Below, piece after piece: positions 24,301-59,325 of a stretch of 59,901 nucleotides of DNA. A program made the position numbers and the translations under genes. The notes under the pieces were generated by a model that saw only the letters and a program-made list of their open reading frames with translations, was not told where the DNA came from and did no database searches. Numbering within the stretch: the first letter of the stretch is position 1; each line of letters begins with the position of its first letter. This DNA comes from Myxococcota bacterium (GTDB lineage: Bacteria; Myxococcota_A; Polyangia; HGW-17), in assembly GCA_018821305.1 (NCBI GenBank), contig JAHJMN010000143.1, forward strand, positions 1 to 59,901. Direction: 5' to 3'.

Positions 24301-27300
24301 ATTTTCGCTTTTTCATGTCCTGGATCTTCTTCAAGAACTTCTCTATATCTCGCTATTGCTCTTTCTGGTTCTTCAAGGTGTACTTGAAGAATGTACCCAA
24401 GTCTGTATTTCAGACTGCGGGCCATTTCTGAGTCATAAGTGAGAGCGAGTTCTTTTTCAACAAGATCATATACATCGGCCCATCGTTCCAGGCTTTCATT
24501 TAAGCGAGCAAGGTATCTTAATGCTTCACCATCATCAGGATTCTCAAGTAGAATTGAGTTCCAGGCTTCTGCGGCACCTTCAATTTCGCCGAGACTTTCC
24601 TCCCTCAATATGGCTATCCGACTCCAGCAACTCTTCCTCAGTTCTGAATCATCAGTGTATTCTACTTTGCGACTGAGCACATCAACGAGCTCCGCCCATT
24701 TTTCAATTCTACTGTAAATAATTTCCAGACGTTCAAGAGCTTCCCTGTCATCGGGAAATTCCTCAAGAAGTCTTGAGTGAGTTTTTGCAGCATCGTCTGG
24801 AGAATCAAGCATATCTTCCTGAAGCAATGCAATTCTTCGGAAAATATTCTTTCTTTCAGTTTCATCGCTTACCCAGGTAAGTTGCCTGTTATGTAAATCA
24901 ATTATTTCAATCCACTCTGAATGCATTGAATAAAGGTCAATTAGAGAGCTTGCGGCACGAGCCTGATATTCAGTATCATCTTCGGCATCCAATAGCCTTC
25001 GATACCATTCGATTGCCTTTTCGAAATCGTTCAATTGACGTTCGTAAATTCGAGCTACACGCTCAGTGTAGAAAAGTTTCAATGACTCATCGTCACCGGC
25101 GGCAGTGATTGCTTCTTTCCATACTTCAACGAGATCTGAATAACTGTTCAGCGCAATTGCAAGTTGTTCAATGGAATTACGAACCTCTTCATTATGCGGA
25201 TCTTTATTCAGTGCTCGACGAAGAGCACTGAAGGCATCTTCAGCTTTCCCGAGTTGGACTGTGAGTATGTCTGCTTCTTTCAGCAACAACTGAACGGCAT
25301 CATGAGTATCCGCTGCAAATTCAAGTTGAATTTCCAACATTTTTACATGTTGTTCATAATCACTATCAAGCTCATAAAGTTCTGCAAGAATTACAGAGCT
25401 TTCAAGCCTTGTTTCAGGAATTTCCAGCATTTCAGAAAGCATATTTCGAACACCCTCATGGGTTTTTCGAATTTCGATAATTTCTTTAATAATTTCGATA
25501 GCTTCTTGATTTCTTTTGAGTTTATGGAGAAGAATATCACATCTTGCGTAAAGGAACCTGACTTTGGCATCACCACTGGTCTGCCATGAGAGATCTTCCT
25601 CATATATTCTTGCCAGATTTTCCCAATCATCTGACAATTCATAAAGTCTAACCAAGCTTTCAAATGCTTCAGGATTTCCCGGCTCAAGCTCTCGCAGCGT
25701 ACTGTAAGATTTGATTGCCGCCGGTATATCCGTAAGCATGTTTTCATTCAGATGGCTCAACTTGAAGAGCATTTCTTTACGAAGCTCAATATCATTAAGA
25801 GCATCGATGCTTTTTTCGTATAAGGTTCGAAGATCATTCCATCTTTCAGAAAAACTGTATATTCGTTCAAGGGCCAGGAAGGCACCTTCATGAAGAGGAT
25901 CTTCTTCTAAAACAATATTATAGAACTTTTCAGATTCTTCTCTGTTATCGCGATCTTCCTCTTCTAAAAGGGCAATTTCCCAAGCAAGTTCAAGACGAAG
26001 ATTGTCTATACCGCTATCAATGAAGTCCAGATAAAGCTTTTTGAGTTCATCAAGTTTGTCATCAAGACGTGAAAGACTTCGGAGTTCCTGTCTTGTTTCT
26101 TCTGAGGATGGATCCAGAGTAAAGAGAGTACAGGCAATGTCAAATCCCTTACCGGTATCACCAACTTTTCTGGTAACGATGTTCAGAAGCTCACGATATT
26201 TCGCGATCTTATCATTTGCATCGGAAAGGAACTGGGCAATTACTTCAAGAGCTGATGCATAATCTTCCCACTGATTCAGCCCAGAAAAGTGCGGAGCTAA
26301 GAGCTCAGCAGATTTTACGCGGTAAGTAATATCCATATCGCCAGTAAGAATGGCTTTCAGACTTTGAACTGTTTCGGGATGTGGAGGATCCGTTGATTCG
26401 ATAATTATTGAATAATAATCCAGAGCATCTGAAGGTTTTTCCAGATTTTTCAGATTAAGATTTCCAAGACGGTACCTGAGATTGGTTTGTTCCGCAGAAC
26501 CTTCATCTGCGAGAATAAGTTGGGTTTTAAGTATTTCTTCGAGTTCCGACCAGTTGCCAACATCATTATATAAACGATCAAGAGCTTCCAGAGCTTTTAA
26601 ATTAGTATCGTCAAGGGAAAGAATCTCTTTGAACAAGTTTATGGCGTCATCCTTTTTATCGAGATAAATCTCAAAAATCTGAGCCATCTTGTGACGAGCC
26701 TGAAGAGTGTATGCACTGTCCGTCACGGTTTCCAGTTGTTCTTTAAGAATATCAATGAGAGCAGTCCAATCTTCACGATATTCGTAAATGGTAGCGAGTC
26801 CGGAAAGGGCTTCTCCGGATGCATTATCAATTAAAAGAACTTCACGCCATATTTTCTCACCTTGTTCAAGCTCCGTCAGTTCCTCAACATAAATTCTTGC
26901 AAGTCTCGAAAGCAACGCAGTTTTGGATTTTCCTTCAAGGGTTTCCACGGCTTTATTCATGGAAACTGCAGCTTCCTTCCATAAGGAAGCTGTAGCCGCA
27001 AAAGTCTCAACCCTGCTGGCCATATGGTCATCATTGGGAACGATTGTGAGTGCTTCACAAGCCCAGCGGAAAGCTTCCGCAGGATTATTTAAATTATCTG
27101 TATTGAGAGAAATAAGTTTATCAAGCCATACAAGCTTCTCAGATTCTTTTTCCTCCGAATGATATAGAATTTCATACATTCTGGAAGCAAGAGACCATTT
27201 GCTTGCGCCTTCATATATTGGAAGAAGTTTCTGCGCTGCTTCTCTGTTTACCGGATCGACTTCAAGAATACGCTCAAACGGTTTAACCGCCCGGTCAGGT

Positions 27301-35736: not shown

Positions 35737-35779
35737 TTAACTTCAAGGTCTGAAACGGCCTTTGGAGAAAGACAATTAT

Positions 35780-36760
35780 ATGAAAATATGTCCAGTATGT
35801 CATGAAACTTTCTCAGATGAACTGACATCATGTCCCCGGGACAACTCGGTTCTTAAATTTGTAAGTGTTTCCAGCCTCAATTTTATAAGTGGGCAGATTG
35901 TAAATAAGAGATTTAAACTGGATTCCCGTATTGGTACCGGGAGTTACAGTCAGGTTTGGCGGGCTGAAGATATCACCAACAATACAAAAGTTGCTGTTAA
36001 ACTTCTGGATTTTCAATCCACCTGCATTGACGAAGTCAGGGACAGTGTATCCAGATTTTTCCGGGAAGCTTATGCAGCATCTCAACTGGGACACCCAAAT
36101 ATAGTTAAAGTAATCGATTTTGGTGAGGAAACCTGTGGTCAACTCTACATGACCATGGAACTGATTGAAGGTGTTTCTCTTACAAAAACAATTCGCTCTT
36201 TCAAGTGGCCTGATGATTTTAGCAGAGCTTTAAATCTTGTAATCCGCATTACTGAAGGCATGGAAGTAGCTCATAAAGCAAGTATTATTCATCGAGATCT
36301 GAAAAGTGACAATATAATCGTTACGGGGACCGGGGCCGATGAAAACATCAAGATTCTTGATTTCGGAACTGCGAAAATTCTTGATGACGACCGACTTGCT
36401 CAAATCAGCAAGGATTTTATCTACGGAACACCATCTTATATGTCACCAGAACAGGCCCGGGGTGTCGCTATCGATGAAGGCAGCGACATTTATGCACTGG
36501 GAGTTATCATGTTTGAAATGTTTACAGGAGATCTTCCATTTAAGGGCTATACTTCCAGTGTCCTCGTTCAACACCTTCAAAAACCGCCTCCGAACCCCAA
36601 AGCGTTAAACGACATTATGCCAAAGAAAATGTCGGATATGATTCTAAAATGTCTGAAAAAAGATCGTAAAAACCGATTTGAGAACATGGCTGATTTAAGA
36701 ATGGAACTTGAAGCTGTTAAAACAAAAATAACCAAATCTTTTAAAATTGTTCAAGATTAG
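35780..36760 (+). CDS. Cytoplasmic Ser/Thr protein kinase with N-terminal zinc ribbon
   Basis: The protein has 326 residues from the ATG at 35780 (GGAGAAAG upstream; an in-frame TTG at 35762 overlaps that site). The first 20 residues hold a CPVC...SCPRD zinc-ribbon-like motif. The kinase domain follows with GTGSYSQVWRA (glycine loop), VAVKLLD (Lys), HRDLKSDN (catalytic loop), DFGTAK and PSYMSPEQ, so it should be active. No transmembrane or extracellular part is present, unlike many bacterial PknB-type kinases, so the zinc ribbon may be the targeting module. The gene precedes the M2 peptidase lipoprotein by 92 bp on the same strand. Confidence 0.92.
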   Translation: MKICPVCHETFSDELTSCPRDNSVLKFVSVSSLNFISGQIVNKRFKLDSRIGTGSYSQVWRAEDITNNTKVAVKLLDFQSTCIDEVRDSVSRFFREAYAASQLGHPNIVKVIDFGEETCGQLYMTMELIEGVSLTKTIRSFKWPDDFSRALNLVIRITEGMEVAHKASIIHRDLKSDNIIVTGTGADENIKILDFGTAKILDDDRLAQISKDFIYGTPSYMSPEQARGVAIDEGSDIYALGVIMFEMFTGDLPFKGYTSSVLVQHLQKPPPNPKALNDIMPKKMSDMILKCLKKDRKNRFENMADLRMELEAVKTKITKSFKIVQD

Positions 36761-36822
36761 CCCCAAGCCAGACAACTTCTCTTATTTTTAAAATTATCGT
36801 AGAAACCCGCAAAGAATATGCT

Positions 36823-36828
36823 TATAAT
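36823..36828 (+). promoter_or_regulatory. Possible -10 box of the M2 peptidase gene
   Basis: A perfect TATAAT lies 24 bp before the start codon, preceded by a TG two bases upstream that could act as a near-extended -10. No good -35 box is seen at the usual distance. AAAGGAGG follows directly as ribosome-binding site. Confidence 0.35.
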
Positions 36829-36852
36829 ACCCAAACCTTAAAGGAGGATTAA

Positions 36853-38706
36853 ATGAAAAAAATACTGTCAACACTCTTGATTGGAACTGTTGCTCTTGTG
36901 AGCTGTACAGGTAAGGATAACAAAGTGGATACTGCGGACAAAACCAATGTAAAAAACCCGGACAAAGATCCGGTAACTGAAAAAGCCCCGGAAAAAATTG
37001 ATTGGAAAAAGAAAGCAGCAGAATTACTGACGGAATACAATTCCAAAGCAGCAAGCTTATATAAAGAAGCAGCATTAGCATACTGGGATGCAGCTCTTAC
37101 GGGTAAATTTGATAAAGCATCTGAAACTGAGCTGGCTTTCCGGAAGTACCATTCTGATAAAGCTATGTTTGATAAAGTTATGGAACTTCAGAAAAATTCT
37201 GCGGATTTTGATGAAGATACAAAACGTACTTTAAAACTTATTGAACTCGGATACAGGGAAAATGTTCTTCCAACTGAGGAACTGAAAAAACTCGTCAATG
37301 CATCCAAAGAAATCGAAAAGATCTTTTCAACTTTCCGTGGGAAATATGATGGCGCTCCTCGAAAAAAATTAAAAAAAGGGGAAAAGCCTGTTAATACTTT
37401 TTCAAACAATGAACTGCTTTCATTTCTCAAAAAAGAAACAAACACCTTGAAACGCCAAAAAATATGGGAAGGCCTTAAAGATGTCGGGGAAGCTGTTGGT
37501 CCCAAACTCGTAGCTCTGGCAAAACTGCGAAACGATGCAGCAAAAAAACTTGGATTTAAAGACTTCTGGCACATGAGGATAGTTCTTCAGGAACACGATC
37601 CGGACAAACTTGTAACTTTATTTGATGACCTTCAAAAGCTTACAGATGCTCCTTTCAAGGCCATGAAAGACGCCCTTGACAAAGAACTGGCTCGGAAATT
37701 CAGGATTAAGACTGCACAACTTATGCCCTGGCATTATGATAATCCATTCTTCCAGGAAGCTCCTCCAAGTGCAAAAGTTAACCTTGATGAATTTTTCAAA
37801 AACAAAAAGAAAGAAGACATTGTTGCAATAGCAAAAACGTTTTTCAACGACATAGATCTTAATGCTGATGATATCATTGAGAGATCTGACTACTATGAAA
37901 AACCCGGAAAAGATCAGCATGCTTTTTGTACAACCATTGACCGGGAAAATGATGTTCGAATGCTCCTTAATATCCGGCCGAATGTTTACTGGATGGACAC
38001 CATGCTTCACGAAACGGGACATGCTGTATATTATAAATATATTGACAGAAACATGAACTGGACACTCAGAGAAGCAGCTCATATATTTACAACGGAAGCT
38101 GTGGCCATGTTTTTCGGTGCCCTTTCAAAAAATATTCCATGGCTGACTGAATACCTTAAGGCTCCCAAAGCGAGGGTGAAAAAACTTGAAAAAGCCATAA
38201 TCGAGCAGCGTATTCGGGAACAACTTATTTTTGCGAGATGGACTCTTGTGATGTTCAACTTCGAAAAAGCTCTTTATGAAAACCCCGATCAGGATCTCAA
38301 CAAATTGTGGTGGGATCTCGTGGAAAAATATCAATTCTTAAAGCGCCCTGTTAAAAGAAATAAAGCGGACTGGGCTTCAAAACCCCACTTTACAATTGCT
38401 CCTGTTTACTACCACAACTACCTCATGGGCGAGCTTTTTGCGGCCCAACTTCGTGCTACTTTTGCAAAAACAATGGGTCATAAAGGTCACCCGGGACAGA
38501 TTGATTTCAATAAGAAAAAAGAAGTTGGCAAATTCATGAAGGAAAAACTCTTTACTTCAGGAATGAAAGTCCATTGGGGCGCATTCGTTAAAAATGCTAC
38601 CGGTGAAGAGCTTTCATCCCGTTTCTTTGCAGAAGAAGTTAAAAACCCTGACGAAAAACCTGTTAAAGCCACCAAAACAGTAAAAAAAGCTAATAAAGGC
38701 AAATAG
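36853..38706 (+). CDS. M2 (ACE-like) zinc metallopeptidase lipoprotein
   Basis: The protein has 617 residues. The signal sequence ends at a lipobox (VALVSC), then a charged linker (about 20-45). The catalytic motif HETGH (His386, Glu387, His390) and a downstream Glu415 in FTTEAVAMFFG match the HExxH...E arrangement of family M2, with the ligand spacing of about 29 seen in angiotensin-converting enzyme. The rest is helical, as in this family. It is a predicted membrane-anchored dipeptidyl-carboxypeptidase-like enzyme acting outside the cytoplasm; the physiological substrate is unknown. A Lys-rich tail (KATKTVKKANKGK) ends the protein. AAAGGAGG supports the start. Confidence 0.88.
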   Translation: MKKILSTLLIGTVALVSCTGKDNKVDTADKTNVKNPDKDPVTEKAPEKIDWKKKAAELLTEYNSKAASLYKEAALAYWDAALTGKFDKASETELAFRKYHSDKAMFDKVMELQKNSADFDEDTKRTLKLIELGYRENVLPTEELKKLVNASKEIEKIFSTFRGKYDGAPRKKLKKGEKPVNTFSNNELLSFLKKETNTLKRQKIWEGLKDVGEAVGPKLVALAKLRNDAAKKLGFKDFWHMRIVLQEHDPDKLVTLFDDLQKLTDAPFKAMKDALDKELARKFRIKTAQLMPWHYDNPFFQEAPPSAKVNLDEFFKNKKKEDIVAIAKTFFNDIDLNADDIIERSDYYEKPGKDQHAFCTTIDRENDVRMLLNIRPNVYWMDTMLHETGHAVYYKYIDRNMNWTLREAAHIFTTEAVAMFFGALSKNIPWLTEYLKAPKARVKKLEKAIIEQRIREQLIFARWTLVMFNFEKALYENPDQDLNKLWWDLVEKYQFLKRPVKRNKADWASKPHFTIAPVYYHNYLMGELFAAQLRATFAKTMGHKGHPGQIDFNKKKEVGKFMKEKLFTSGMKVHWGAFVKNATGEELSSRFFAEEVKNPDEKPVKATKTVKKANKGK

Positions 38707-44586: not shown

Positions 44587-45840
44587 TCAGGGCTGGGGTG
44601 ATACGGGAGGAAGTGAGTGCTGCGTATTGAGTTTTCGAAGATATGCCGGTTTATTCATTTCACTGTCAAGAGGCGTGGCAGGTTTCTGATCCATTGAAAG
44701 ATTTGGCAGTTCCTGACTCCTGGCTCGCATTACGGGCATTTCGCCGGATGGAGTTTTGCGTACTTCCATCTGATCCGTTACTTTATAATTCATCTGCATC
44801 TGGGATACTTTACGTGAAATTCCATGTGATGAATCAAATACTTCGTTTCCAGCAGGTCTCGCGTCCACAATGGCTCCATTCTCAAATTCGAAACCTGTGG
44901 CAATAATTGTAACACGGACTTCATTTTCAAGACTGTCGTCGAACACAGTACCCCAGATTACGTTGGCATCTTCATTTGCCATATCTTCAATAAGCATTGC
45001 TGCTTCATTGATCTCAGCAAGAGGCAGTCTGGAATTGCACGTAATATTAACTAAAACGCCTGTAGCGCCTTCAATGGAAACATCTTCAAGTAAAGGACTT
45101 GAAATTGCATTTTTAACAGCTTCCACCGCTGCCCGATCGCCTTTGTGGGTACCAATTCCCATTAGTGCGCGGCCTTTATCATGCATGACTGTTCTGACAT
45201 CCATAAAGTCTACATTAACATAACCGGAATTGACGATCAGATCCGTAATGCCCTTGGAAGCATTCAGGAGAACCTGATCCGCCCGGCAAAAGGCATCTTG
45301 AATACTGATATTCTGACTGAGAGACAGAAGTTTGTCGTTCGGGATGATAATAAGAGCATCAACTTCGTTCTGAAGCATCGAAATGCCTTCTTCAGCTTGT
45401 CTCATGCGTCGGCGACCTTCAAAACGGAATGGTTTGGTCACAACACCAACGGTGAGAGCTCCTGAATCTCTTGCTATTCTTGCAATTACAGGCGCTGCCC
45501 CGGTTCCTGTACCACCACCCATGCCCGCAGCGATAAAGATCATGTCTGAACCCTTGAGGGACTGTCTGAGAGCATCTTCGCTCTCTTCAGCGGCCACTTT
45601 ACCCTTTTCAGGATTAGCACCAGCACCAAGACCACTTGTTGCTTTTTCGCCAATCTGGATTTTTACGGAAGCAGGATTGCGATCCAGAGCCTGTCTGTCG
45701 GTGTTTGCGACAATGAAATCTACTCCTGAAAGAGCATTTTCAACCATGTTTTTCACGGCATTTCCACCGGCTCCACCAACACCGATGATTTTAATTCTGG
45801 CTTCTCCGTTCCTGTTGTTCTCATCCATAGTAAAGGGCAT
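44587..45840 (-). CDS. ftsZ: Cell division protein FtsZ
   Basis: The protein has 417 residues from ATGCCC at 45840, preceded by GGAGG at 5 bases; the frame is open 16 codons further but without a ribosome-binding site. The tubulin signature GGGTGTG (AAGMGGGTGTGAAPVIA), the N-terminal GVGGAGGNAV and the T7 loop (NVDFMDVRTVM) are intact. A variable linker leads to the C-terminal peptide MNKPAYLRK, which should bind FtsA, with a further LNTQ.. tail. It is the last gene of the dcw string, 89 bp after ftsA. Confidence 0.97.
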   Translation of the reverse strand: MPFTMDENNRNGEARIKIIGVGGAGGNAVKNMVENALSGVDFIVANTDRQALDRNPASVKIQIGEKATSGLGAGANPEKGKVAAEESEDALRQSLKGSDMIFIAAGMGGGTGTGAAPVIARIARDSGALTVGVVTKPFRFEGRRRMRQAEEGISMLQNEVDALIIIPNDKLLSLSQNISIQDAFCRADQVLLNASKGITDLIVNSGYVNVDFMDVRTVMHDKGRALMGIGTHKGDRAAVEAVKNAISSPLLEDVSIEGATGVLVNITCNSRLPLAEINEAAMLIEDMANEDANVIWGTVFDDSLENEVRVTIIATGFEFENGAIVDARPAGNEVFDSSHGISRKVSQMQMNYKVTDQMEVRKTPSGEMPVMRARSQELPNLSMDQKPATPLDSEMNKPAYLRKLNTQHSLPPVSPQP

Positions 45841-45929
45841 CGCATCCTCCATATCAAATCGCCCATGAGGGCGTGAAAATCTGTTCAAATTTCAATCGGG
45901 CAAAAGCAATACTTATCCCGAAAATAAGA

Positions 45930-47210
45930 TCAGTCAAAAAAACTCTCGAACCATGAAGCCACTTTATTGAAAACATTGGCTTTTTCTTTTACTTTATTTT
46001 CCGAATCAATGATGGTTCTTGCCTGAAAATCACTTCCCTGAGCACAGTGCATGAGGGTTCCGACACTTGAGGCAAACTGCGGTGCTCTGGCCATGTCAAA
46101 CATACCCTGAGGTATAGTTGGTATTCCAGCCTCTACCTTCATTTCCAGTATATTTTCAAGGTATTCCTTCAAACCACGCAAATTTGATGTTCCCCCCGTG
46201 AGAAATACTGTCATGGGATGATCAAGTTCGCAGCCCGCTTCATGAAGAGGCTCTAAAAGCCTTACAAGTATATCTCTCACTGCTGTTTCAATAATTCCAG
46301 AAACATCATACCAGGAAATATTACCCATTCCAAGTCCGCTCAACTGTTCGATGGTTTCGTGGCCATTTTCCAGTAGAAATGGAGCAGCATAGCCAAAGTG
46401 CTGTTTAATCATTTCCGCTTCAGACTGGATACAGCGTAGCTGTGACGCTATATGGTTTGTTATATAGTTTCCACCAATGGGGATGACATCACAGTACTCA
46501 AGCATTCCATTTCGATAAACAGTTATATCAGTACTTCCTGCGCCAATATCAATTATTGCGCAACCCAGAATCAGGTGTCTTTGCAGTGCAACACTGAGAT
46601 GTGTGGCATAGGGGGAGAAAATTATTCCACTGATGGAAACGCCTGCCAGATTACAAGCTCTCTGAATATCATCAATAATTGAAGTGGGAACTGTCAAAAT
46701 TCTCGCTTCAATATCCATGCGTACACCCTTCATTCCTACGGGCTTTGCAACGGGGGTTCCGTCCACTAAGAACCGACCGGGAATAACATGGACTATACTT
46801 TCGTTTGGATTAAGCGGTAAAGCCCTTGCAGCGCAACTGAGTCGTTCAAGAGTTCTCTGAGTAATAATATTACCAGGCTCATCAACTGCAACCATAGCGT
46901 TATTGGAGTGTATCTGAAAATCTCTGTCTTTAAGGCCAACAAAGACCTCTTCAACTTCAAAACCAAGGATACTGCGTGCGTCACTTATGAGGTCCCGCAT
47001 AATCCTTGATACTTCCTCAACATTTACTATCCGGCCGGCGTTAACACCGCTGGTATTGTAGTGTATCAGTCCAGACAGTGAGACAAACTGACCTGAAGCA
47101 ACGCTTCCAACACTGAGGCTGATTTTGTTTGAGCCAATATCAATAGCTGCTACCAGTTGTTCGATATCCTGTAAGTTTGAATCCATAATCACTTCCCGGT
47201 TATTTCCCAT
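45930..47210 (-). CDS. ftsA: Cell division protein FtsA
   Basis: The protein has 426 residues, actin-like. Visible are the ATP-binding AAIDIGSNKI and AIIDIGAGSTDITVY motifs, the 1C-domain region, VFLTGGTSNLRG and a C-terminal amphipathic helix (NKVASWFESFFD) for membrane attachment. GGAG 7 bases upstream supports the ATG at 47210; a second Met nine codons in has a weaker site. It anchors FtsZ to the membrane. A 177-bp gap separates it from ftsQ and may contain its own promoter. Confidence 0.95.
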   Translation of the reverse strand: MGNNREVIMDSNLQDIEQLVAAIDIGSNKISLSVGSVASGQFVSLSGLIHYNTSGVNAGRIVNVEEVSRIMRDLISDARSILGFEVEEVFVGLKDRDFQIHSNNAMVAVDEPGNIITQRTLERLSCAARALPLNPNESIVHVIPGRFLVDGTPVAKPVGMKGVRMDIEARILTVPTSIIDDIQRACNLAGVSISGIIFSPYATHLSVALQRHLILGCAIIDIGAGSTDITVYRNGMLEYCDVIPIGGNYITNHIASQLRCIQSEAEMIKQHFGYAAPFLLENGHETIEQLSGLGMGNISWYDVSGIIETAVRDILVRLLEPLHEAGCELDHPMTVFLTGGTSNLRGLKEYLENILEMKVEAGIPTIPQGMFDMARAPQFASSVGTLMHCAQGSDFQARTIIDSENKVKEKANVFNKVASWFESFFD

Positions 47211-47305
47211 GAGTGGCTCCGGAACCGATTTTCAAATGCCTGAGATGTGCCGTTTGAAAACAGCCTTCTCATTTCGAAACAAATATGTTTTGAAACTTGT
47301 AGGTT

Positions 47306-47318
47306 GAAACCGGTCTGG
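47306..47318 (+). promoter_or_regulatory. GAAACCGGTCTGG motif in the ftsQ-ftsA gap
   Basis: It matches the core of the motif found upstream of cheD and queG (GAAAxCGGTCTGG), but here it is in the opposite orientation relative to the gene (ftsA is on the minus strand). It may be a partial element end rather than a control site. Confidence 0.3.
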
Positions 47319-47387
47319 AAAATTTCCAACGGAAAAAATTTTTATCAGAGAAGTTTCAAATCCGCCATTTTTGGGAACTTAGGATAT

Positions 47388-48485
47388 CTAACGATTTGAA
47401 CTTAAATGATTATTGGTCTTTTTTGTGAAGTTTGCGTTTTGACGGGCAATAACTGAAGATTTCTTATTCTTCTTTTTATTCAGAGGATTTATATCGGCTT
47501 TTAATTTTTCTACATGCTTTCGAGTGTACTTTGTTTTAATTTTTTTTCCGTCTTTTTCAGATTGAAGTTTTCCTTCATCATCTTCGTCTTTTTCCTCTTT
47601 TTTAATAACTGGAATCACAAGGGCTCTGGTTGGATTCTCACGGTTATCAAGATAAATCAGATTTATGTCTTTCAATGCAATCTCTACATTTGCCAGAAAT
47701 TGATCCAGAACTGCAAACTGTTGCTTGTAATTTTCCAGATCTACCTGAACTGATGTGGTACTTTCCTTGAGAATAAGTCTGGCAGAATCATGCTTTACAT
47801 ATACTTCAGAAACCGCAGGTCTGGCGGAATTGGAAGAATATACCTCCATCATATCAATAACTCTCTTAAGTCTTCGACTGATGACCGCAGGTTTAAGATT
47901 GTAATCTTCACGGGAGAACCCCGTAATAATAAATTTTCCCTTGAGAGCAGATGTTTCAGCCTTTTTAAAGATTTGACCTTTTGAATTCAGCAGATAAAAG
48001 TTGTTCTCCCCACCGGAAGTTAGAAATAAAACTGAACAAACAGCACTTTCTTCTTCGATTTCTATTACAATAGTGTCCGGCAATTTTCGCCAGACACGGG
48101 CTTCACGAATCCATGGATGTTCAACTAATTTTTTACGCACCTCTCCAGGTTTGACTTTAAATATATTCGTTCCCCAACTCAATCCTGACTGTCGAATAAC
48201 TTCTTTTTTTTCGATTTGCCGTGTATGTCCAATTTTTACATGGCGAAGACGAAAATGTGTTCCATGATAAACATATTGATATCCTTTATATATACCAAAC
48301 AAGAGGAGCACTAGAAATAAAAACCCTCCCACGGGCGCTCTATATTTTTTTAAATCAATCTCTGGAAGCTTGAACCTTTCCTTTTCAGGAACTGGAACCT
48401 CATCAGTTGATGAAGGCGCCTCCTTGATGACCCTGCGTACGCCACGGGTAGGCGTTGCTTTTTTTCTCAATTTCGGAATTCTCAT
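47388..48485 (-). CDS. ftsQ: Cell division protein FtsQ/DivIB
   Basis: The protein has 365 residues, topologically typical: a basic cytoplasmic N-terminus, one transmembrane helix (about 51-69), a POTRA domain (HFRLRHVKIGHTRQIEKKEV..SGLSWG) and the FtsQ domain (PWIREARVWRKLPDTIVIEIEEE). The C-terminal tail (about 300-365) is unusually long and Lys-rich (KKNKKSSVIARQNAN..) compared with standard FtsQ. It recruits later divisome proteins. murC lies 28 bp upstream. Confidence 0.9.
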   Translation of the reverse strand: MRIPKLRKKATPTRGVRRVIKEAPSSTDEVPVPEKERFKLPEIDLKKYRAPVGGFLFLVLLLFGIYKGYQYVYHGTHFRLRHVKIGHTRQIEKKEVIRQSGLSWGTNIFKVKPGEVRKKLVEHPWIREARVWRKLPDTIVIEIEEESAVCSVLFLTSGGENNFYLLNSKGQIFKKAETSALKGKFIITGFSREDYNLKPAVISRRLKRVIDMMEVYSSNSARPAVSEVYVKHDSARLILKESTTSVQVDLENYKQQFAVLDQFLANVEIALKDINLIYLDNRENPTRALVIPVIKKEEKDEDDEGKLQSEKDGKKIKTKYTRKHVEKLKADINPLNKKKNKKSSVIARQNANFTKKTNNHLSSNR

Positions 48486-48513
48486 AAACCAATTTCCTGT
48501 TCAGTTAGTGTCC

Positions 48514-49923
48514 TTAAATATTTTTATTAAAATTCTTAAGTTTTTCCAACAATGATGGTCCTACTTTAGTTATACTTCCAGCCCCAAGAGTAATAACCAG
48601 ATCTCCGGTTTTGACTGTTTTCATGAGCTCAGCAAGGGTCGAATCTGGATCTCCTGTAGATATTGCCGTCCTCCTGGAACTTCTGGAAATTGAGTCAGCC
48701 AATCTACGGGAATTAACATTTTCTCGCGGAGGTTCCCCGGCTCCATATATCTCTGAAACAAATATCAAATCAGCATTAACAAAGGCACGGGAAAATTCCG
48801 AAAACAAATTAACAATTCTGGAATATCTGTGAGGCTGAAATACTGCAATTATCCTGCGATCCGGGTAACCCAGACGAGCAGCTTCCAGTGTGGCCATAAT
48901 TTCCGTTGGATGATGGCCATAATCATCAACCACCAGAATGCCGCCATACTCACCTTTGATTGTAAACCTTCTGTCAACACCTTCAAACTCCTTGAGAGCT
49001 TTTGCAATGGATTCAAAAGGCAACCCTAATTCCAGAGAACAAGCAACACAGCCAAGGGAATTAAGAACGTTATGACGTCCTGGAATATGAATTTCAATTT
49101 TCCCGACCTCTTTTCCATGTGCACTTACATTATAGGTACTCATGAGCCCGTCTGTTTCAAGGTTTTCCGCTCTGTAATTAGCGTGAATAGATTGACCATA
49201 GGTTACAATTTTGCGATGTACCGTCTGAGCGACATTCATCAGGTGTTCATTGTCGGCGCATACTATATTAAACCCATAAAATGGAACGGAGGACATAAAA
49301 CTTCTAAAACAGTGCTTTAAGTCATTAAAATCACTGTAGTTTTCCATATGCTCCTGATCAATATTAGTAACAATATTTACCATTGGTCTCAAAAATAGAA
49401 AACTCCGATCACTTTCGTCCGCCTCAACGAGCATAATTTTACCCGTCCCGGTTTTTGCATTTGAACCGAGAGAATTGAGTTTTCCGCCTATTATGACCGT
49501 CGCTTCTGCTTGTGCTTCCTGCAATATTGTCGCCATTAAAGAAGTTGTAGTTGTTTTTCCGTGGGTACCCGCTACGGCAATCCCGTCGGAAAATCGCATA
49601 AGTTCTGCAAGCATTTCTGCCCGTGGAATTACAGGAATTTTAAGATCTCTGGCCATAATAATTTCTGGATTATCATCCCGTACGGCACTGGATTTTACTA
49701 CCACATGAGCATTGACTACATTTTCACCTCGATGTCCTTCAAAAATTGTCGCACCTTTTTTCTCGAGGCGCTCAGTGTTCTCATTTTTTCTTAGATCGCT
49801 TCCAGTAACTGTGTATCCAAGATCAATAAGAATCTCTGCGATACCACTCATTCCTATACCCCCTACACCAATAAAGTGAATCTTTCGTACTCTTTCCCTG
49901 AAAAGTCTCTGAGGCCTGCTCAT
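48514..49923 (-). CDS. murC: UDP-N-acetylmuramate--L-alanine ligase MurC
   Basis: The protein has 469 residues, full length. It adds L-Ala to UDP-MurNAc, the first peptide-stem step of peptidoglycan synthesis. N-terminal Rossmann motif FIGVGGIGMSGIAEIL, the ATP-binding loop AGTHGKTTTT and the Mur-ligase DDYGHHPTEI motif are present. The start overlaps the murG stop by 4 nt, so it is translationally coupled. Confidence 0.96.
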   Translation of the reverse strand: MSRPQRLFRERVRKIHFIGVGGIGMSGIAEILIDLGYTVTGSDLRKNENTERLEKKGATIFEGHRGENVVNAHVVVKSSAVRDDNPEIIMARDLKIPVIPRAEMLAELMRFSDGIAVAGTHGKTTTTSLMATILQEAQAEATVIIGGKLNSLGSNAKTGTGKIMLVEADESDRSFLFLRPMVNIVTNIDQEHMENYSDFNDLKHCFRSFMSSVPFYGFNIVCADNEHLMNVAQTVHRKIVTYGQSIHANYRAENLETDGLMSTYNVSAHGKEVGKIEIHIPGRHNVLNSLGCVACSLELGLPFESIAKALKEFEGVDRRFTIKGEYGGILVVDDYGHHPTEIMATLEAARLGYPDRRIIAVFQPHRYSRIVNLFSEFSRAFVNADLIFVSEIYGAGEPPRENVNSRRLADSISRSSRRTAISTGDPDSTLAELMKTVKTGDLVITLGAGSITKVGPSLLEKLKNFNKNI

Positions 49924-51065
49924 TTGTTTACTCCATCACCCGATAAGGTAGTGTATTCAGAATAGTTTTTTAAAAATTTAAGCATATCATCACGGATATC
50001 AGATGCGGCCTGAGGTTTTGCCAGAGCCGTCATTTTCCGGGACATTTCTTCCCGAAGTACTTGATCCATAGTAAGTTTTTTTAAAGTTTCTATCAGCACT
50101 TGTACCGTAAGGTCTCGTTCTGTGATACAAACAGCGCCTCCTGCGGATTCAACAGATAGAGCATTAAGTTCCTGATGATTGTCCGCGGCGTATGGATATG
50201 GTATAAGTATTGCTGGCTTGCCTGCAATTGCCAATTCTGCAAGAGTTGTCGCTCCCGCACGGCAGATAATCACATCTGCTTCATTGTACGCATCATGCAT
50301 TTCATATATAAATTCAGACACTTCACTTTTAATGCCAGCTTTTCCATAAGCAGATTTTACTTCAGTTTGATCCAGTTTACCTGTTTGATGCCTGATTTTT
50401 ATATTCAATTCAGATAGTTTTGTGGCCGCATCAATTAGAGCTTTATTAATCGCATGCGCGCCCTGTGAACCACCGAAAACAAGCACATTACATTCAGTGT
50501 GCGCCTCGGATAACCCGGCATTCTTTATGCTTTCAACAATGTTTTCTCTGACAGGATTTCCCGCCGGAATGAACCGGTTTACAGGAAAAAAACCAGCACT
50601 TTCTTTAAACGAAGCGTAAATCCGCCTCACAAATTTGCCCAGAATTCTGTTTGTGATTCCCGGCCTGGTATTCTGTTCAAGGATAAAAGTCCGGAAAAAC
50701 AACATTGTAGCGGTCATCACTAGAGGTCCGGATGCATATCCGCCCACCCCAACAACAATCTGTGGACGAACCCTCAATAGTATCCATATGGATTTGAAAA
50801 AAGCTAACGGAAGTATTAAAAATCCAAGAATTGTGCCTATAACTCTACCGCCTTTGAGTCCTTTAACAGGAATAAGATGAAGGTCATAGCCTTCCCTCGG
50901 CACAACACGCGTTTCAATTCCTCTTTTGCTCCCCACAAAATGAACTTCAGCTCCAATTTTTTTGAAGCTTTCGGCTAAAGCGATACCAGGATAAAGATGT
51001 CCCCCTGTGCCTCCACCAGCTATGATTACTTTAAGTTTTTTTTGTGTCGCTTTCTTTGCGGGCAT
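49920..51065 (-). CDS. murG: UDP-N-acetylglucosamine transferase MurG
   Basis: The protein has 381 residues from ATGCCC at 51065, which has GGAGG six bases upstream; the frame extends 19 codons further upstream without a ribosome-binding site. Signature motifs are GGGTGGHLYPGIALAE, VGVGGYASGP, and a C-terminal donor-binding region with ICRAGATTLAELAIAGKPAIL and PYPYAADNHQE. It makes lipid II at the cytoplasmic membrane. It is the first gene of this dcw string; ftsW and murD, usual upstream neighbours, and murB/ddl between murC and ftsQ are absent here. Confidence 0.96.
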   Translation of the reverse strand: MPAKKATQKKLKVIIAGGGTGGHLYPGIALAESFKKIGAEVHFVGSKRGIETRVVPREGYDLHLIPVKGLKGGRVIGTILGFLILPLAFFKSIWILLRVRPQIVVGVGGYASGPLVMTATMLFFRTFILEQNTRPGITNRILGKFVRRIYASFKESAGFFPVNRFIPAGNPVRENIVESIKNAGLSEAHTECNVLVFGGSQGAHAINKALIDAATKLSELNIKIRHQTGKLDQTEVKSAYGKAGIKSEVSEFIYEMHDAYNEADVIICRAGATTLAELAIAGKPAILIPYPYAADNHQELNALSVESAGGAVCITERDLTVQVLIETLKKLTMDQVLREEMSRKMTALAKPQAASDIRDDMLKFLKNYSEYTTLSGDGVNK

Positions 51066-51280
51066 CCGATTCCTCCAGTTTTCCACCCACCAAGGGGCGG
51101 ATTTTCCCACAGGAGAATACATTTATTATTGCTTTAACTCAAATTTTACTGAAAATGTGATCTTCAATGGTTATTGTAATCCTTAATATAATATCATATG
51201 TTTTCAGACCATTTGGGTACTTTAAGAATGCGTCAGATATAGAAAATATATTGAAATTCGAACTTAACCATAATAGACTC

Positions 51281-52457: not shown

Positions 52458-52580
52458 AAGGCAGTAGCAGTAACAGGGAGGCAATTTTTGCTTTGCAAAA
52501 ATGCAAGGGGAAAACAGGGGCTCTTTCCTGAAGCATTTCTTTAAACCGAGTCACAATCCTTTTACTCAGGACACGATCTA
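52458..52580 (-). repeat. Family C element, partial copy C6 with A-like terminus
   Basis: Only the right half of a reversed copy is present, with the nested hairpin insert (52471-52509) also found in C4. Its end reads GAGTCACAATCCTTTTACTC then AGGACACGATCTA, i.e. a family C body joined to a family A-like terminus. The final TA plus C gives TAG on the minus strand, the stop codon of uppP. Confidence 0.65.
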
Positions 52581-53387
52581 AAAAGAGAATAACGAGGGGA
52601 AAAGAAAAACAGTCATACAAAAAGCCGCAAGGGGGAAGAGATACCATGCAAATATCCTTATTTTGCCCTTTTCAACGATTTTTACGAGGAACACTAAACT
52701 GAAAAAACCAGCAATTGCACTAAGGGCAACGCCGGAAATGAGGTGCAGCGGGTTTGAAACCGAGGAAATCGCTCTGCCCTCCAGAATTCCAGCTCCAGCA
52801 ACAGCGGGAATAGCAATGAGAAATGAAAAACGAGCAGCAGCAACGGGTGAAATACCCATTAAGAGGGCTGCACAGATTGTAAAACCACTTCTGGAAATTC
52901 CCGGTGTGACTGCTAAACCCTGCACAATTCCGAGTATTAATGCATGTTTCCAGGTCATGGTAACATCACGTGGACGTATTTTTGAAGTAATAACCAGTAA
53001 GACCGCAGTAAATGTAAAAGCCCCACTGAGATAAAGCCATGGACTTGAGCCCATGAACATTTTTTCGATAGGATTTTTTAAAGTTAGAGCAATAATTGCA
53101 GTAACACCGGTAGCTAAGACTATATGAAAGATTAATAAAACAGACGTACTCTCAACGTTTTTTCTTAATATGAACAAGAAAAAAGATTTGATAAGATCCA
53201 TTATAATATCACGATAATAAAAGATTATTGCGCCGAGAGTTCCGAGGTGGAGAAAAACATTAAAAGCAATAGATGGCTGTATATGAAGAATTTTCTCCAG
53301 AACAACCAGATGACCACTTGACGAAACGGGAAGGAACTCTGTCAATCCTTGAAGCAAACCGAGTAAAAGTGCAGATAATATTGACAT
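52578..53387 (-). CDS. uppP: Undecaprenyl-diphosphatase UppP (BacA)
   Basis: The protein has 269 residues, a polytopic membrane protein. It recycles undecaprenyl diphosphate to the monophosphate for lipid II and other envelope polymers. The diagnostic motifs LLQGLTEFLPVSSSGHLVVLE and GIVQGLAVTPGISRSGFTI are both intact, including the acidic, Ser/His and Arg catalytic positions. The TAG stop (52578-52580) is exactly the end of the repeat element described above. It shares functional theme with the nearby murG/murC. Confidence 0.96.
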   Translation of the reverse strand: MSILSALLLGLLQGLTEFLPVSSSGHLVVLEKILHIQPSIAFNVFLHLGTLGAIIFYYRDIIMDLIKSFFLFILRKNVESTSVLLIFHIVLATGVTAIIALTLKNPIEKMFMGSSPWLYLSGAFTFTAVLLVITSKIRPRDVTMTWKHALILGIVQGLAVTPGISRSGFTICAALLMGISPVAAARFSFLIAIPAVAGAGILEGRAISSVSNPLHLISGVALSAIAGFFSLVFLVKIVEKGKIRIFAWYLFPLAAFCMTVFLFPSLFSF

Positions 53388-54868: not shown

Positions 54869-55085
54869 TTATCTTGGTTTTTCAAGGGAGATCTCAATTG
54901 ATCCATTTTTTACTTATAAAGATACTTCCATACTTAAAAAACGGTGCATGATAATGGATTTTTTGTAAAAATTCTCTTAAAACGTGTATTTCAGGAAGCG
55001 TGATCTTGACCTTATGACATAAACGAATTATCCTTAGCTGAATTTGCAAACGCAAGTTCTGAATAAATGTAAATCGGAGGTACCG

Positions 55086-57356
55086 ATGGCTGATCAGCAG
55101 ACCTATGAATTGGATGGCAGATTTGTTCTTGGCAATTCTGTTGAGGAAAAACCTTCTGGAGTCGTATATGAGGCAACGGATAAAAACTCCGGCGCAAGTG
55201 TTCATGTATTCATCGTCCGACCAGGTATTTTACCGGATCAGGCAGCAATAGACCGCGCCAGAAAAGAAATTCAAACAATCTCGAGTATAAAGAACTGTAT
55301 TGGTGCAATCCATATGAATGTACTCCCGGATGGACGACTGTATGTTGTTAACCGGATACCATCGGGAACCCAGTTGAGTGTTCGAATTGCACAGGGTGTA
55401 ATTCCTTCCGATGAAGCGCTTAAATACATTGAAAGTATGGCTCGTATCCTCAGAGATGCATCTTCCTATGGGGTTTTCCATAGAGAGATAGGACCATCAA
55501 ATATCTATCTCCAACCGGATGGAACAGTTAATATTGGTGGTTTTGGAATAGCACAGATGCTTCTACCTGGAATATTCGGAGATCCCTGGTTCATGTCTCC
55601 GGAGCAGGCATCCGGTTTAGAGCCAGGCTTACCAAGCGCCATCTATAATCTAACCTGCATGTTATATTATATGGTTTGTGGAATGCCGCCATACATTGAT
55701 GGAGATCCAGCTGTTTTGGTTGAAAAACATCGAACTGCTACGCCACCTGCTCCCACATCAATTCGTCCAGATCTCCCTGGTTCCTTTGATGAATTTGCAC
55801 TCAAAGGTCTCGCAAGAGACCCCAATTCGCGGATATCTAATTTTGATTTCTTCGTTAAAGAAATGAAGGCCGCTTTTGGAATTGGAGACCCTTCTCCCTC
55901 AGCAGTTCAATCTTTTGAAGCGGTGGCCGCGCCTGTTGCCGCTCCCGCACCTGTTGCTGCGCCTGATCCTTTTGCTGCACCTGTTGCCGCTCCCGCAGCG
56001 GCTCCGACAGCTCCCGAATCTGCTCAATCACCACAGGGTGAACCTGAAGATGAAGGCGATTCCCGTTCTCCTCGGCGAAGACGAAAAGGCGGATTCCGAG
56101 AGACTTTGTGGTTTAAAAAAGGGGAAGAACAAGAAGAAGCGGCTCCGGTAAAAGCTGATGAACTCATGAAAGTCCAGGAAGGCACTGGAAATATATCTGA
56201 TCAGGATAAGACCCTGGAAGAAAAATACCGTGACGGCCAGGTTGCTTTAAGTGCTGAAGATCGCAGAAAGTTTTCTGTTAGAACAGGTCAAACAGGAGTT
56301 TTTCAGGCTGTAAAGGTGGAAGATATAAAAGCTGCGGAAGCAAAGCGCGAGCAGGCCGAAATTGAGGCTTCAGAAAAACGACGCAAAAGTAAGATGGTAT
56401 GGGGAATTGTTGGAATTATTTTTGTAGCTGCTGCTGTTGCCGGTGGTATCTTCGGTGCAAATAAATATCTCTATAAAAAGCATTTTACTCCTGATTCCGT
56501 CGATAAAATGGAAGCTGTTCTCAAAGGAATTAAGCCCGCACCTCCGCCACAGTTTGTTCTGAACACCAAGTTATCCATTTCTGAGCTTAATTCTGGAATT
56601 GATGCTCTTATAAAAGATAAGAAAAATCTCATTCCTGAAACGCCCGTAGGAGACGGTACCAGTGCAATAGAACTTTTAATGAGTATTAAAGCACACAAAG
56701 ATACCAAACCTGAGTTACTCGAAAAATCAACAATAGAGCTGAAAAACACCGTCTTTTCTCTTGGATATCTTGATAAATATCATGATAAAATTGATTTTCT
56801 CGAGAGAACACATACTGCCTTCGCAGCGATCAACCCAAACGATCCGAATATTGTCTCTTTCAAGACAATGATTGATTTTTACAAATCAAGACGTGCTAAA
56901 AAAGCTAAAATGACCCTGAAGGATTTACTCGGGTTCCTGCCAGTGTATCCAACGCCTCCCCTTTGGGTAAGGGCCAAAGAAACAGATGTCAAAAAACTTT
57001 GGGCTGCGTATACTAAAGCCTTCTCTTCTCCGGACACACTGATTGAAGATACAGAAAATTCGGCATTGAGTATTTTCCTCGCACTGAAAGTTGAAATACC
57101 AAAAGTAAAAAAACTTGATCGCAAAATTAAAAAAGAATGGCCTGAAACTGAAAAGAAACTTAAAGAAAAACTTCTTTCCGAACTTCAGAAACTGTTTGAA
57201 GCAAAACAGTGGATTAATCTGCGACGCATGATCAATGCAATTAGCGCACTTGATTCAAACGAAAAAAGAGCCATCGATGTATATAATAAATCATACATGA
57301 ATTTCCCGAGTCTCACTCTGAGAGAATTTTTTGCAAAACAGTATATGAACAAATGA
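55086..57356 (+). CDS. Membrane-anchored Ser/Thr pseudokinase
   Basis: The protein has 756 residues from the ATG at 55086 (GGAGG 6 bases upstream). Residues about 10-265 have the protein-kinase fold, but key residues are lost: the catalytic loop reads FHREIGPSN (HRD Asp to Glu134, catalytic Lys absent; Asn139 kept), DFG reads GGFG (Asp to Gly152), and the VAIK lysine position is non-basic (VHVFIV). MSPEQ is conserved. A Pro/Ala-rich linker (about 270-320) and charged region lead to one transmembrane helix (about 437-460) and a helical extracytoplasmic domain of about 295 residues. It is probably a non-catalytic scaffold or sensor. It starts an operon with two envelope genes (4-nt overlap with the next). 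Confidence 0.88.
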   Translation: MADQQTYELDGRFVLGNSVEEKPSGVVYEATDKNSGASVHVFIVRPGILPDQAAIDRARKEIQTISSIKNCIGAIHMNVLPDGRLYVVNRIPSGTQLSVRIAQGVIPSDEALKYIESMARILRDASSYGVFHREIGPSNIYLQPDGTVNIGGFGIAQMLLPGIFGDPWFMSPEQASGLEPGLPSAIYNLTCMLYYMVCGMPPYIDGDPAVLVEKHRTATPPAPTSIRPDLPGSFDEFALKGLARDPNSRISNFDFFVKEMKAAFGIGDPSPSAVQSFEAVAAPVAAPAPVAAPDPFAAPVAAPAAAPTAPESAQSPQGEPEDEGDSRSPRRRRKGGFRETLWFKKGEEQEEAAPVKADELMKVQEGTGNISDQDKTLEEKYRDGQVALSAEDRRKFSVRTGQTGVFQAVKVEDIKAAEAKREQAEIEASEKRRKSKMVWGIVGIIFVAAAVAGGIFGANKYLYKKHFTPDSVDKMEAVLKGIKPAPPPQFVLNTKLSISELNSGIDALIKDKKNLIPETPVGDGTSAIELLMSIKAHKDTKPELLEKSTIELKNTVFSLGYLDKYHDKIDFLERTHTAFAAINPNDPNIVSFKTMIDFYKSRRAKKAKMTLKDLLGFLPVYPTPPLWVRAKETDVKKLWAAYTKAFSSPDTLIEDTENSALSIFLALKVEIPKVKKLDRKIKKEWPETEKKLKEKLLSELQKLFEAKQWINLRRMINAISALDSNEKRAIDVYNKSYMNFPSLTLREFFAKQYMNK

Positions 57357-57991
57357 GCAGATATTCTATAATTATTTCCATCGCGTCAATGAGCCTTCTG
57401 TTAGCCTGTACGGGCAATCAGGACGCTTACTCTACTTATAACAACTTTACAAAAGCCTGGAAAAAGCATGATAAGGCTGGAATCAAAAAGTACGTAGCGA
57501 CTCCTGTTCTAAAACGATACTCTGCCTCCACCCTTGTAATGTTCTCAAAGGAGCCTGACAGGAAACCTGTAAAGATATCAAGTAAATCAGATAAAAAGTT
57601 TTTCACTTCTGTGACTACATCTTCAAACACGATGAGTATGGTTTTTCGTGATGGAAAATGGTTTTTTACTGGTTTAATGATTCCCGTATATTCCTCATCC
57701 ACACCGGAGGAAACGGTCAAATCGTTCATTAAAGCATTAAAATTTCAGAGAATAGACATTATTTCGTCATTACTTGTGGAAGATTACCGGCTCAGTATAA
57801 AACAAACCGAACTCGCACAGATTTTCAGTCTGAAGAATCCCGAAATAAAACAGTTACTCAATGACCTTGAAAAAGCAAAAGATACTCCGATTATTACAAG
57901 GGAAAATACCGCCGTTTTACAGTATTCTGACTCAAAGAGTTTCAAGATGAAGCGTGTTGGTAGTAAATGGCTTATTGTAGACCCGGATTGA
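57353..57991 (+). CDS. Lipoprotein with two NTF2-like (DUF4878-type) halves
   Basis: The protein has 212 residues, with lipobox SLLLAC. The sequence has two segments of about 90 residues with the NTF2/DUF4878 pattern: NNFTKAWKKHDKAGIKKYV...MVFRDGKWFFTGLMIP and ETVKSFIKALKFQRIDIISSL...FKMKRVGSKWLIVDPD. Such folds bind peptides or small ligands. Its start overlaps the pseudokinase stop (ATGA), so the two are translationally coupled and may work together at the membrane. The next gene follows after 11 bp. Confidence 0.7.
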   Translation: MSRYSIIISIASMSLLLACTGNQDAYSTYNNFTKAWKKHDKAGIKKYVATPVLKRYSASTLVMFSKEPDRKPVKISSKSDKKFFTSVTTSSNTMSMVFRDGKWFFTGLMIPVYSSSTPEETVKSFIKALKFQRIDIISSLLVEDYRLSIKQTELAQIFSLKNPEIKQLLNDLEKAKDTPIITRENTAVLQYSDSKSFKMKRVGSKWLIVDPD

Positions 57992-58002
57992 CAGGTAAAA
58001 AC

Positions 58003-59325
58003 ATGATTAACAGATATATCATTTTTTCAAGTATAATACTTTTCTTTTCCTCTGGTGCTTTTGCCCAGAATAAATCTGACAGCGAAGACGATGGAGACGG
58101 AAAAGAAGAAACCGTTAAAAAGAAAGATGGTCGAAAACCGGGTGGAACCCATCTTTTCATTGTTATTTCACCTGACGAATATTATAAAACTTTGTCAATG
58201 ATGGCAGTGGAAATAGGGCAAAAACTCGCAAAAAAATCATCCATCATCGCAGTGCCTTTTATCGAATCCGATGCAGTTATTCCCAAAGCAGAATGGGATG
58301 CAGTTTATAAAGATAAATATAAAAAAGGCGTCAAACTTTTCAAAAAAGGCAAATATCCTAAAGCAGTTAAGTTACTTCAATCCACAGTAAACGGCTTTAA
58401 GGATTTAATCACAAAATACGGTCTTACATATAAAATAAGAAGACGACTTTCCATTGCCTACTATTACCTTGGTGGTGCACAGGCTCTTGATGCTCTTACT
58501 GAGAATGCAAAAGGCTCGTTCCGCAGTGCATATAGTCTTTTTCCAATGTACCCTCAACCAAAGAGTGTTTTTAAACAGGAAGCTATTGGAAAGTTATTTT
58601 CCTCTTCCATAGAACCAACAAAAGCTGGCAGCGGTACACTGATTGTTAACAGTCCGGTTAAAGGTTTCGTTTTCATTAATGGTCACCTGATCACCACAAC
58701 TCCAGCAATTATAGAAGATATCGCCCCGGGTAGGCATTCCGTTGCTTTTGGACGATTGGGCTTTAATCCTGTTTTTCAGGAAGTTGAAGTTAAAAGTGCT
58801 GAGAAAACAGTAGTGGATTTTAAAACAACTCCTGTTGCAAATTCGAAGGCATTTTTTCATACACTCGACACTATTGACAATCAATTAGTAAATAAGTCAA
58901 GTGTGCCCGAAGGTATTCTTGAAATTGCCCGGAAAGTACGAGTTGATAATATTATTATCCTCAGGGCTAATGCCAATGATACTGAAGTTTCCTGGTACAA
59001 TATGAAACTGAATGTTTGGCACAAGCGTGTTCGACGAAGAAACGCTGTAATCGGAGATCTCAATAAAGAAGTTGTCAAAGAAGTATTTAATCAGAAAAAA
59101 GTAATTGATCTCGCAACAGTCCGTGAAAAAGATAAGAAATGTTTTTCTGATCGTGATTGCGGAGAAGGTACATGTATCGCAGGGCGATGTACCGATGATA
59201 CTCCAGTCTACAAAAAATGGTGGTTCTGGACAGCCATTGGTGTTGGGGCTGCTGCCCTTGGAGGTGGTTCATACTTCCTCATTAAAATGAAAAACCGCCC
59301 TGAGTTTCGCTTTTCCACCCCATAA
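58003..59325 (+). CDS. PEGA-domain membrane protein with C-terminal anchor
   Basis: The protein has 440 residues from the ATG at 58003 (an in-frame ATG at 57967 lies inside the upstream gene). The signal peptide ends at GAFA-QN. A charged linker is followed by a TPR-like region (about 95-180), then a PEGA domain (about 205-275: GTLIVNSPVKGFVFINGH, TTPAIIEDIAPGRHSVAF) and a Cys-motif DKKCFSDRDCGEGTCIAGRC (about 380-400). A final transmembrane helix (about 410-432) is present. PEGA domains are usually cell-envelope attached. It is the third gene of the pseudokinase operon and presumably the outermost component; the function is unknown. Confidence 0.75.
   Translation: MINRYIIFSSIILFFSSGAFAQNKSDSEDDGDGKEETVKKKDGRKPGGTHLFIVISPDEYYKTLSMMAVEIGQKLAKKSSIIAVPFIESDAVIPKAEWDAVYKDKYKKGVKLFKKGKYPKAVKLLQSTVNGFKDLITKYGLTYKIRRRLSIAYYYLGGAQALDALTENAKGSFRSAYSLFPMYPQPKSVFKQEAIGKLFSSSIEPTKAGSGTLIVNSPVKGFVFINGHLITTTPAIIEDIAPGRHSVAFGRLGFNPVFQEVEVKSAEKTVVDFKTTPVANSKAFFHTLDTIDNQLVNKSSVPEGILEIARKVRVDNIIILRANANDTEVSWYNMKLNVWHKRVRRRNAVIGDLNKEVVKEVFNQKKVIDLATVREKDKKCFSDRDCGEGTCIAGRCTDDTPVYKKWWFWTAIGVGAAALGGGSYFLIKMKNRPEFRFSTP

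Follow-up and report, generated by a model that had tools for sequence, protein, structure and literature searches.

According to the available parts of the papers cited here (a scope that holds for every citation below), the phosphorylated tail of MviN recruits FhaA (PMC12599244; also PMC11898655), YukC has a pseudokinase that shows no ATP binding and is recovered together with the YukB FHA region in copurification (PMC9600267), and a phosphomimetic StkP juxtamembrane domain favors the recruitment of division proteins (PMC12077195). Myxococcus xanthus is reported to have 99 kinases of this kind, 11 of which are pseudokinases (PMC6791715), and the GLW pseudokinases come from proteobacteria and carry a helix on the C-terminal side of the kinase domain (PMC12599244); the available text of the latter paper contains no occurrence of "myxo," "deltaproteobacteri," or "PEGA." Here, we analyze a trio of genes on the plus strand of contig JAHJMN010000143.1 of a Myxococcota bacterium (assembly GCA_018821305.1). 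The whole stretch that was analyzed, 59,901 nucleotides, is called the window below. According to the list of open reading frames (ORFs), the trio is close-packed at 55086-59325 and encodes, in order, a membrane pseudokinase, a lipoprotein, and a PEGA protein. Judged from sequence, we consider it moderately likely that this operon forms a noncatalytic transmembrane platform of the cell envelope.

Pseudokinase and juxtamembrane linker

The first gene (55086..57356) encodes a protein of 756 amino acids and starts at the ATG at 55086, with an upstream Shine-Dalgarno sequence, GGAGG, at 55076-55080. Its kinase-fold domain (residues 10-265; 55113..55880) matches Pkinase PF00069 with E = 1e-16 and 61.5 bits against a cutoff of 31.7, which places it within the Hanks-type fold, and its nearest solved relatives are PknB, PknE, PknA, and StkP. 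The first-pass annotation described this domain as having kept the fold and the MSPEQ motif and lost the VAIK Lys, HRD Asp, and DFG Asp, and both parts of the description are borne out. Phe42 (55209..55211) replaces the VAIK Lys, HRE132-134 (55479..55487) replaces HRD, and, by sequence alignment, GFG152-154 (55539..55547) replaces DFG. The beta-3 strand, VHVFIV, has no Lys whether the Lys position is aligned at F42 or at I43, and two of the three Gly-loop glycines are lost; the alpha-C Glu and the catalytic-loop Asn are retained, as is MSPEQ.

Relatives were sampled as 96 genomes, its own included. A search with the outer domain of the pseudokinase found it in 8 genomes (own plus 7 relatives), all of one taxonomic order and belonging to families f1 and f3. 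Seven of the eight sequences could be aligned; in the eighth genome (G007), the contig carries just the C-terminal end of the kinase gene, which was left out of both the catalytic-motif and the linker tables. None of the seven has the VAIK Lys, HRD Asp, and DFG Asp of an active Ser/Thr kinase: in every case Lys is changed to F or L, HRD to HRE, and the DFG Asp to G or N, and the alpha-C Glu and catalytic-loop Asn are constant throughout. By this comparison, the triple catalytic loss is beyond chance, since it recurs in 7/7 f1/f3 sequences and the gene linkage is conserved. Only the G009 kinase among the seven carries an N-terminal zinc ribbon. The kinase gene of G002 (L003, near 1785) has an in-frame TAG in the outer domain, possibly a sequencing error in this metagenome-assembled genome.

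Downstream of the kinase domain lie a variable Pro/Ala-rich spacer (55881..56066), a conserved cytoplasmic juxtamembrane linker (residues 328-436; 56067..56393), the core of a transmembrane helix (438-456; 56397..56453), and an outer, periplasmic domain (465-756; 56478..57353), which is probably helical and is the least conserved folded part. The helix that had been predicted between the kinase and outer domains is confirmed by a single hydropathy peak of 2.37. The outer domain was likewise predicted to be helical, and helices are seen, but in an unreliable model with a mean predicted local distance difference test (pLDDT) score of 37. Mean pairwise identity among the seven f1/f3 sequences, which were recruited with the outer domain and not with the linker, is 72% in the linker (333-413), 52% in the helix, 46% in the kinase domain, 31% in the outer domain, and 25% in the spacer. 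Nonsynonymous divergence (dN) between the window and G001 is 0.086 for the linker, 0.30 for the kinase domain, 0.39 for the outer domain, 0.58 for the lipoprotein, and 0.36 for the PEGA protein, with synonymous divergence saturated everywhere except in the PEGA gene. With the highest identity and the lowest dN of all parts, the membrane-adjacent linker is thus under the strongest constraint, a point absent from the first-pass annotation. Two motifs stand out in the 33 of 36 wider-family rows from which linker columns were taken (G093, G065, and G023 were dropped): FRETLWFKKG (residues 337-346; 56094..56123), with F337, R338, T340, W342, F343, and G346 in 33/33, and SVRTGQT (397-403; 56274..56294), with S397, G401, and T403 in 33/33, the latter being a candidate phospho-docking site. 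Profile A7, built from 24 of these 33 rows, agrees.

Linker-kinase family and probable assembly of the trio

The linker profile (A2), which matches the window protein itself with E = 1.1e-59, finds matches in 36/96 relatives at E ≤ 0.01, with a usual architecture of zinc ribbon, kinase domain, Pro/Ala spacer, linker, and helix. When the phylum was sampled evenly, the linker was matched in at least 6 of 282 genomes, 5 of them of the same class, in a search that scored at most 18 candidates per genome and may have missed some matches. A marginal match lies outside the class (G149:C414:129-356; E = 4.2e-4), and one genome has a weak second match within a 144-amino-acid frame (G044:C13:38017-38214). 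Literature on pseudokinases or inactive kinases together with Myxococcota, Myxococcus, PEGA, or SpoT/Deltaproteobacteria does not describe this family in the titles and abstract beginnings of the matches listed.

Catalytic motifs could be read in 35 of the 36 members (G093 was dropped at a contig end). The Lys is kept in 22, the Asp of HRD or HHD in 28 (all readable members other than the seven of f1 and f3), and the DFG Asp in just 5; all three residues are kept in 4 (G053, G059, G076, and G087, the last with DFA). What replaces the DFG Asp varies by lineage (N, G, H, or E). Family f18 is intact and f21 has DFG, DFA, and EFG. The Lys and HRD remain in f7 and f15, where Asn stands at the position of the DFG Asp. 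The Lys is gone from f2, f4, f13, and f16; of these, f4 retains the Asp as DLG, whereas f2 has His and f13 and f16 have Gly in its place. In f1 and f3, none of the three residues is left. The kinase-domain tree tracks taxonomy, with strong support for f1+f3, f1-f4, f7+f15, and f13+f16, and the linker kinases form one vertically inherited family. On this tree, the DFG Asp changed at least 3 times (5 if only losses are allowed, as counted by hand), loss of the Lys can be explained by one event, and the HRD Asp disappeared a single time, on the branch leading to f1+f3. Orthologs with intact catalytic residues, which the first-pass annotation regarded as evidence against a pseudokinase, are thus present (4/35), but only outside the order, and all 7/7 f1/f3 sequences are dead. 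The pattern indicates a family that is shedding catalysis, not an active window protein.

The lipoprotein gene (57353..57991) begins with an ATG that overlaps the stop of the pseudokinase gene, and the PEGA gene (58003..59325) starts 12 nucleotides past the lipoprotein stop. The kinase and lipoprotein genes adjoin in 8/8 f1/f3 genomes having the kinase, and the PEGA gene comes next in 6/8 (own, G001, G002, G005, G009, and G003), so the absence of conserved linkage, which would have refuted the first-pass proposal, is not seen. The case of G003 runs across a contig break: one contig ends within the lipoprotein gene, and the remainder of it and the PEGA gene are at the end of another contig. A contig scan of the genomes yielded a single locus, L009, identical in place to that of G001. 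In a scan for promoters and terminators, 12 and 5 sites were found compared to 13.1 and 4.6 in shuffled sequences, which is uninformative.

The two leading genes have different ancestral neighborhoods. Among the 36 kinase loci, relA/spoT is near in 21, gmk in 21, yicC in 19, and tmk in 16, and none has bamA, skp, or fabZ nearby. Of the lipoprotein loci that are not part of the trio, 32 were fetched out of 61 genomes with a match to lipoprotein profile A3; 17 of these 32 have bamA, skp, or fabZ nearby (union counted by hand; bamA in 15, fabZ in 15, and skp in 11), and none has relA/spoT. All these are lower bounds, as many contigs end early; Pfam confirms the neighbor identities at L105, L118, and L059. 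In G008, of the same order and family f2, both genes are still in their ancestral places (L045 and L103), and in the window genome the best relA/spoT match is on contig C105 and the best bamA match on C85. Because the two neighborhoods differ and G008 keeps both, the operon is most likely secondary, with the trio assembled in the f1+f3 ancestor, on the branch where the HRD Asp was lost; the two events coincide on one branch only, a coincidence that is statistically untestable. The pairing, in f1+f3, of kinase and lipoprotein genes from separate ancestral neighborhoods suggests that their joint expression was selected for. A putative lipoprotein of ~600 amino acids without a Pfam match lies between lpxA/fabZ and the trio-type lipoprotein (L105:3473-5281 and L118:3860-5650) and is near 14/32 loci.

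The lipoprotein has 212 amino acids, is matched by profile A3 in 61/96 genomes, and carries the lipobox LLAC. The NTF2-like label given in the first-pass annotation is weak: the match to NTF2-like PF22813 (E = 0.0011) is below the cutoff and is seen in 1/7 members. Its C-terminal half, modeled with confidence, gives NTF2-like folds in Foldseek and is probably of this type, with 0/213 matches at E ≤ 0.001. The PEGA protein (440 amino acids; profile A4) has a signal peptide and a C-terminal transmembrane helix, both identified by eye. Of the features first ascribed to it, the PEGA domain (58633..58821; PF08308, E = 8e-7, above the cutoff) and the Cys motif CFSDRDCGEGTCIAGRC (59140..59190; four Cys invariant in 5/5 orthologs) hold up, and the TPR repeats are unconfirmed, as Pfam shows no TPR hit at E ≤ 1. 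The Cys motif matches TIGR04201 below its cutoff, and profile searches of the PDB gave nothing convincing for either protein.

Elsewhere in the window, a division/wall cluster with ftsZ, ftsA, ftsQ, a Mur ligase gene, and a murG-like gene (44587-51122, minus strand) lies a few kilobases from the trio, and uppP (52578-53387) is also near; in L009, the division cluster does not adjoin the kinase gene. In four f1 loci, uppP and a YVTN beta-propeller gene stand divergently beside the kinase gene. A 3,718-amino-acid ORF of TPR repeats (18390-29546, minus strand) is followed by small GTPase and acetyltransferase genes. At 35762-38706 (plus strand), the gene of a kinase with a zinc-ribbon-like N terminus and with VAVK, HRD, and DFG all present precedes an M2/M32-type peptidase gene. 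A special tie between the trio and this active kinase (given as 35780 in the first-pass annotation) is not supported, as the two are ~19 kb apart and the whole genome has 66 Pkinase matches, besides 27 FHA matches.

Candidate docking platform and rival explanations

What is a membrane kinase for once its chemistry is gone? Loss of catalysis alongside a nearly unchanged membrane-adjacent linker makes it probable that the protein serves as a platform for docking and not as an enzyme. On this view, a cytoplasmic docking site would be built from the dead kinase domain and the linker, with the linker serving for input or output, and the single helix would tie this site to a periplasmic domain that cooperates, presumably by contact among the three proteins, with the other two products of the trio. 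A platform would fit the dead kinase, the near-invariant linker, the one helix, the fast-evolving periplasmic domain, and joint expression with the two exported proteins. The noncatalytic, membrane-anchored kinase domain coupled to two exported proteins that was first proposed stands, but a mere anchor is unlikely, the strongest constraint being in the linker. In a further step, by analogy with MviN/FhaA, an active kinase of the same cell might phosphorylate invariant Thr403 (or Thr340) in trans, and an FHA protein might then recognize the phosphorylated residue. We offer such phospho-dependent docking tentatively, as the leading guess, because of the conserved linker Thr, the many Pkinase and FHA matches in the genome, and the three precedents cited at the outset.

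Several points weigh against a docking platform of this kind. The 33-row motif table was picked via the linker itself, so that conservation of the linker in the wider family is inflated, partly by construction, and the conserved Thr residues may not be phosphosites. The full-length model, built with two sequences, was discarded, and the pocket could not be inspected in it. Moreover, the PEGA gene is elsewhere in G006 and was not found in G007, leaving 2/8 loci without PEGA at the site, and none of the three trio genes was found in G004, a genome 88% complete.

A rival explanation makes the pseudokinase a structural component of machinery for export or assembly, like YukC/EssB, but tied to outer membrane biogenesis and acting without a phospho-signal. 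The order of parts is that of YukC (cytoplasmic pseudokinase, one helix, extracytoplasmic domain), and the lipoprotein is ancestrally placed by bamA, skp, and fabZ (17/32 loci, Pfam-checked at L105 and L118). However, there is no YukC/EssB family match at E ≤ 1, and the conserved linker has no counterpart in the available descriptions of YukC, so we regard this role as somewhat unlikely. Less likely still is a nucleotide sensor whose pocket would bind ATP, GTP, or guanosine tetraphosphate (ppGpp) without catalysis and reshape the linker. The alpha-C Glu and catalytic-loop Asn kept in 7/7 speak for it, and relA/spoT and gmk, each near in 21/36 loci, would point to nucleotide status; yet the beta-3 Lys, with bulky F or L in its place, two Gly-loop glycines, and the DFG Asp are lost, relA/spoT is on a different contig in the window genome, and adjacent genes are often functionally unrelated.

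Degenerate-motif kinase folds are capable of other chemistry, such as AMPylation or glutamylation (PMC12599244), which raises the question of an active or repurposed enzyme like SelO or SidJ. SidJ, however, reuses retained ATP- and metal-binding residues (PMC12599244); the window protein has a degenerate Gly loop and neither the Lys nor the Asp of HRD or of DFG, and for it this explanation is highly improbable. That the kinase domain is a functionless remnant under relaxed decay is very unlikely: the order does have long branches in the tree, but HRE and Asn are constant in 7/7, kinase dN is 0.30 with saturated synonymous sites, linkage is conserved, and an in-frame stop occurs in just G002 among the seven aligned sequences. 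Decay of a dead gene was rejected on the constant HRE/Asn and the linkage. Two further identities were tried and are not supported. The PADLOC defense-system matches (PD-T4-6, mad6) cover essentially the kinase part and are better for the ordinary kinase at 35762, and membership in type VII secretion finds no EssB/YukC match in Pfam or NCBIfam at E ≤ 1.

Beyond the docking platform itself, a wider and more doubtful proposal is that the linker holds the true function of the whole family, as a membrane docking hub for which catalysis was repeatedly dispensable. In f1 and f3, the last catalytic residue would then have been lost on the branch where the kinase left relA/spoT for a lipoprotein of outer membrane biogenesis, giving a relay between envelope and cytoplasm, perhaps one for the stringent response.

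Comparison with known membrane kinases and pseudokinases

Bacterial pseudokinases are known mostly as single cases, and here one orthologous family, united by common ancestry, gene neighborhood, and an almost invariant linker, has intact, partly degenerate, and dead members. It offers a direct test of the role of a kinase after the chemistry is dropped, flags an uncharacterized 80-residue linker motif as the functional center, and ties a pseudokinase genetically to a lipoprotein of an outer membrane biogenesis locus.

Like the catalogued pseudokinases (ActPs1-3, GLW, CP1, DYD, and DLHK; PMC12599244), the window protein is a kinase without key residues; unlike GLW, which has GLW for HRD, it has HRE, as do all 7/7. 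With MviN/FhaA (Mycobacterium; ActPs3) it shares a degenerate kinase domain on an envelope membrane protein. However, MviN acts as a flippase for lipid II and has many membrane helices, whereas the window protein has one helix and one hydropathy peak, no flippase domain in Pfam at E ≤ 1, the kinase domain first and then the linker, and a lipoprotein and a PEGA protein as neighbors. StkP and PknB are the nearest solved domain relatives, and in StkP the juxtamembrane segment is a docking site; these kinases are active and carry PASTA repeats, and the window protein is neither active nor matched by PASTA in Pfam at E ≤ 1, with 113.6 bits to NF033483 against a cutoff of 450. The likeness to YukC/EssB lies in a pseudokinase, one helix, and an extracytoplasmic domain, YukC being a contact hub that binds FHA domains (PMC9600267), and the difference lies in the missing family match, the long conserved linker, and the other neighbors. 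On the best reading, the platform would work like MviN/FhaA or YukC/EssB and be a member of neither. Overall, the trio is a variation on the known theme of membrane pseudokinases, and its most interesting aspect is a linker-centered family with repeated loss of catalysis.

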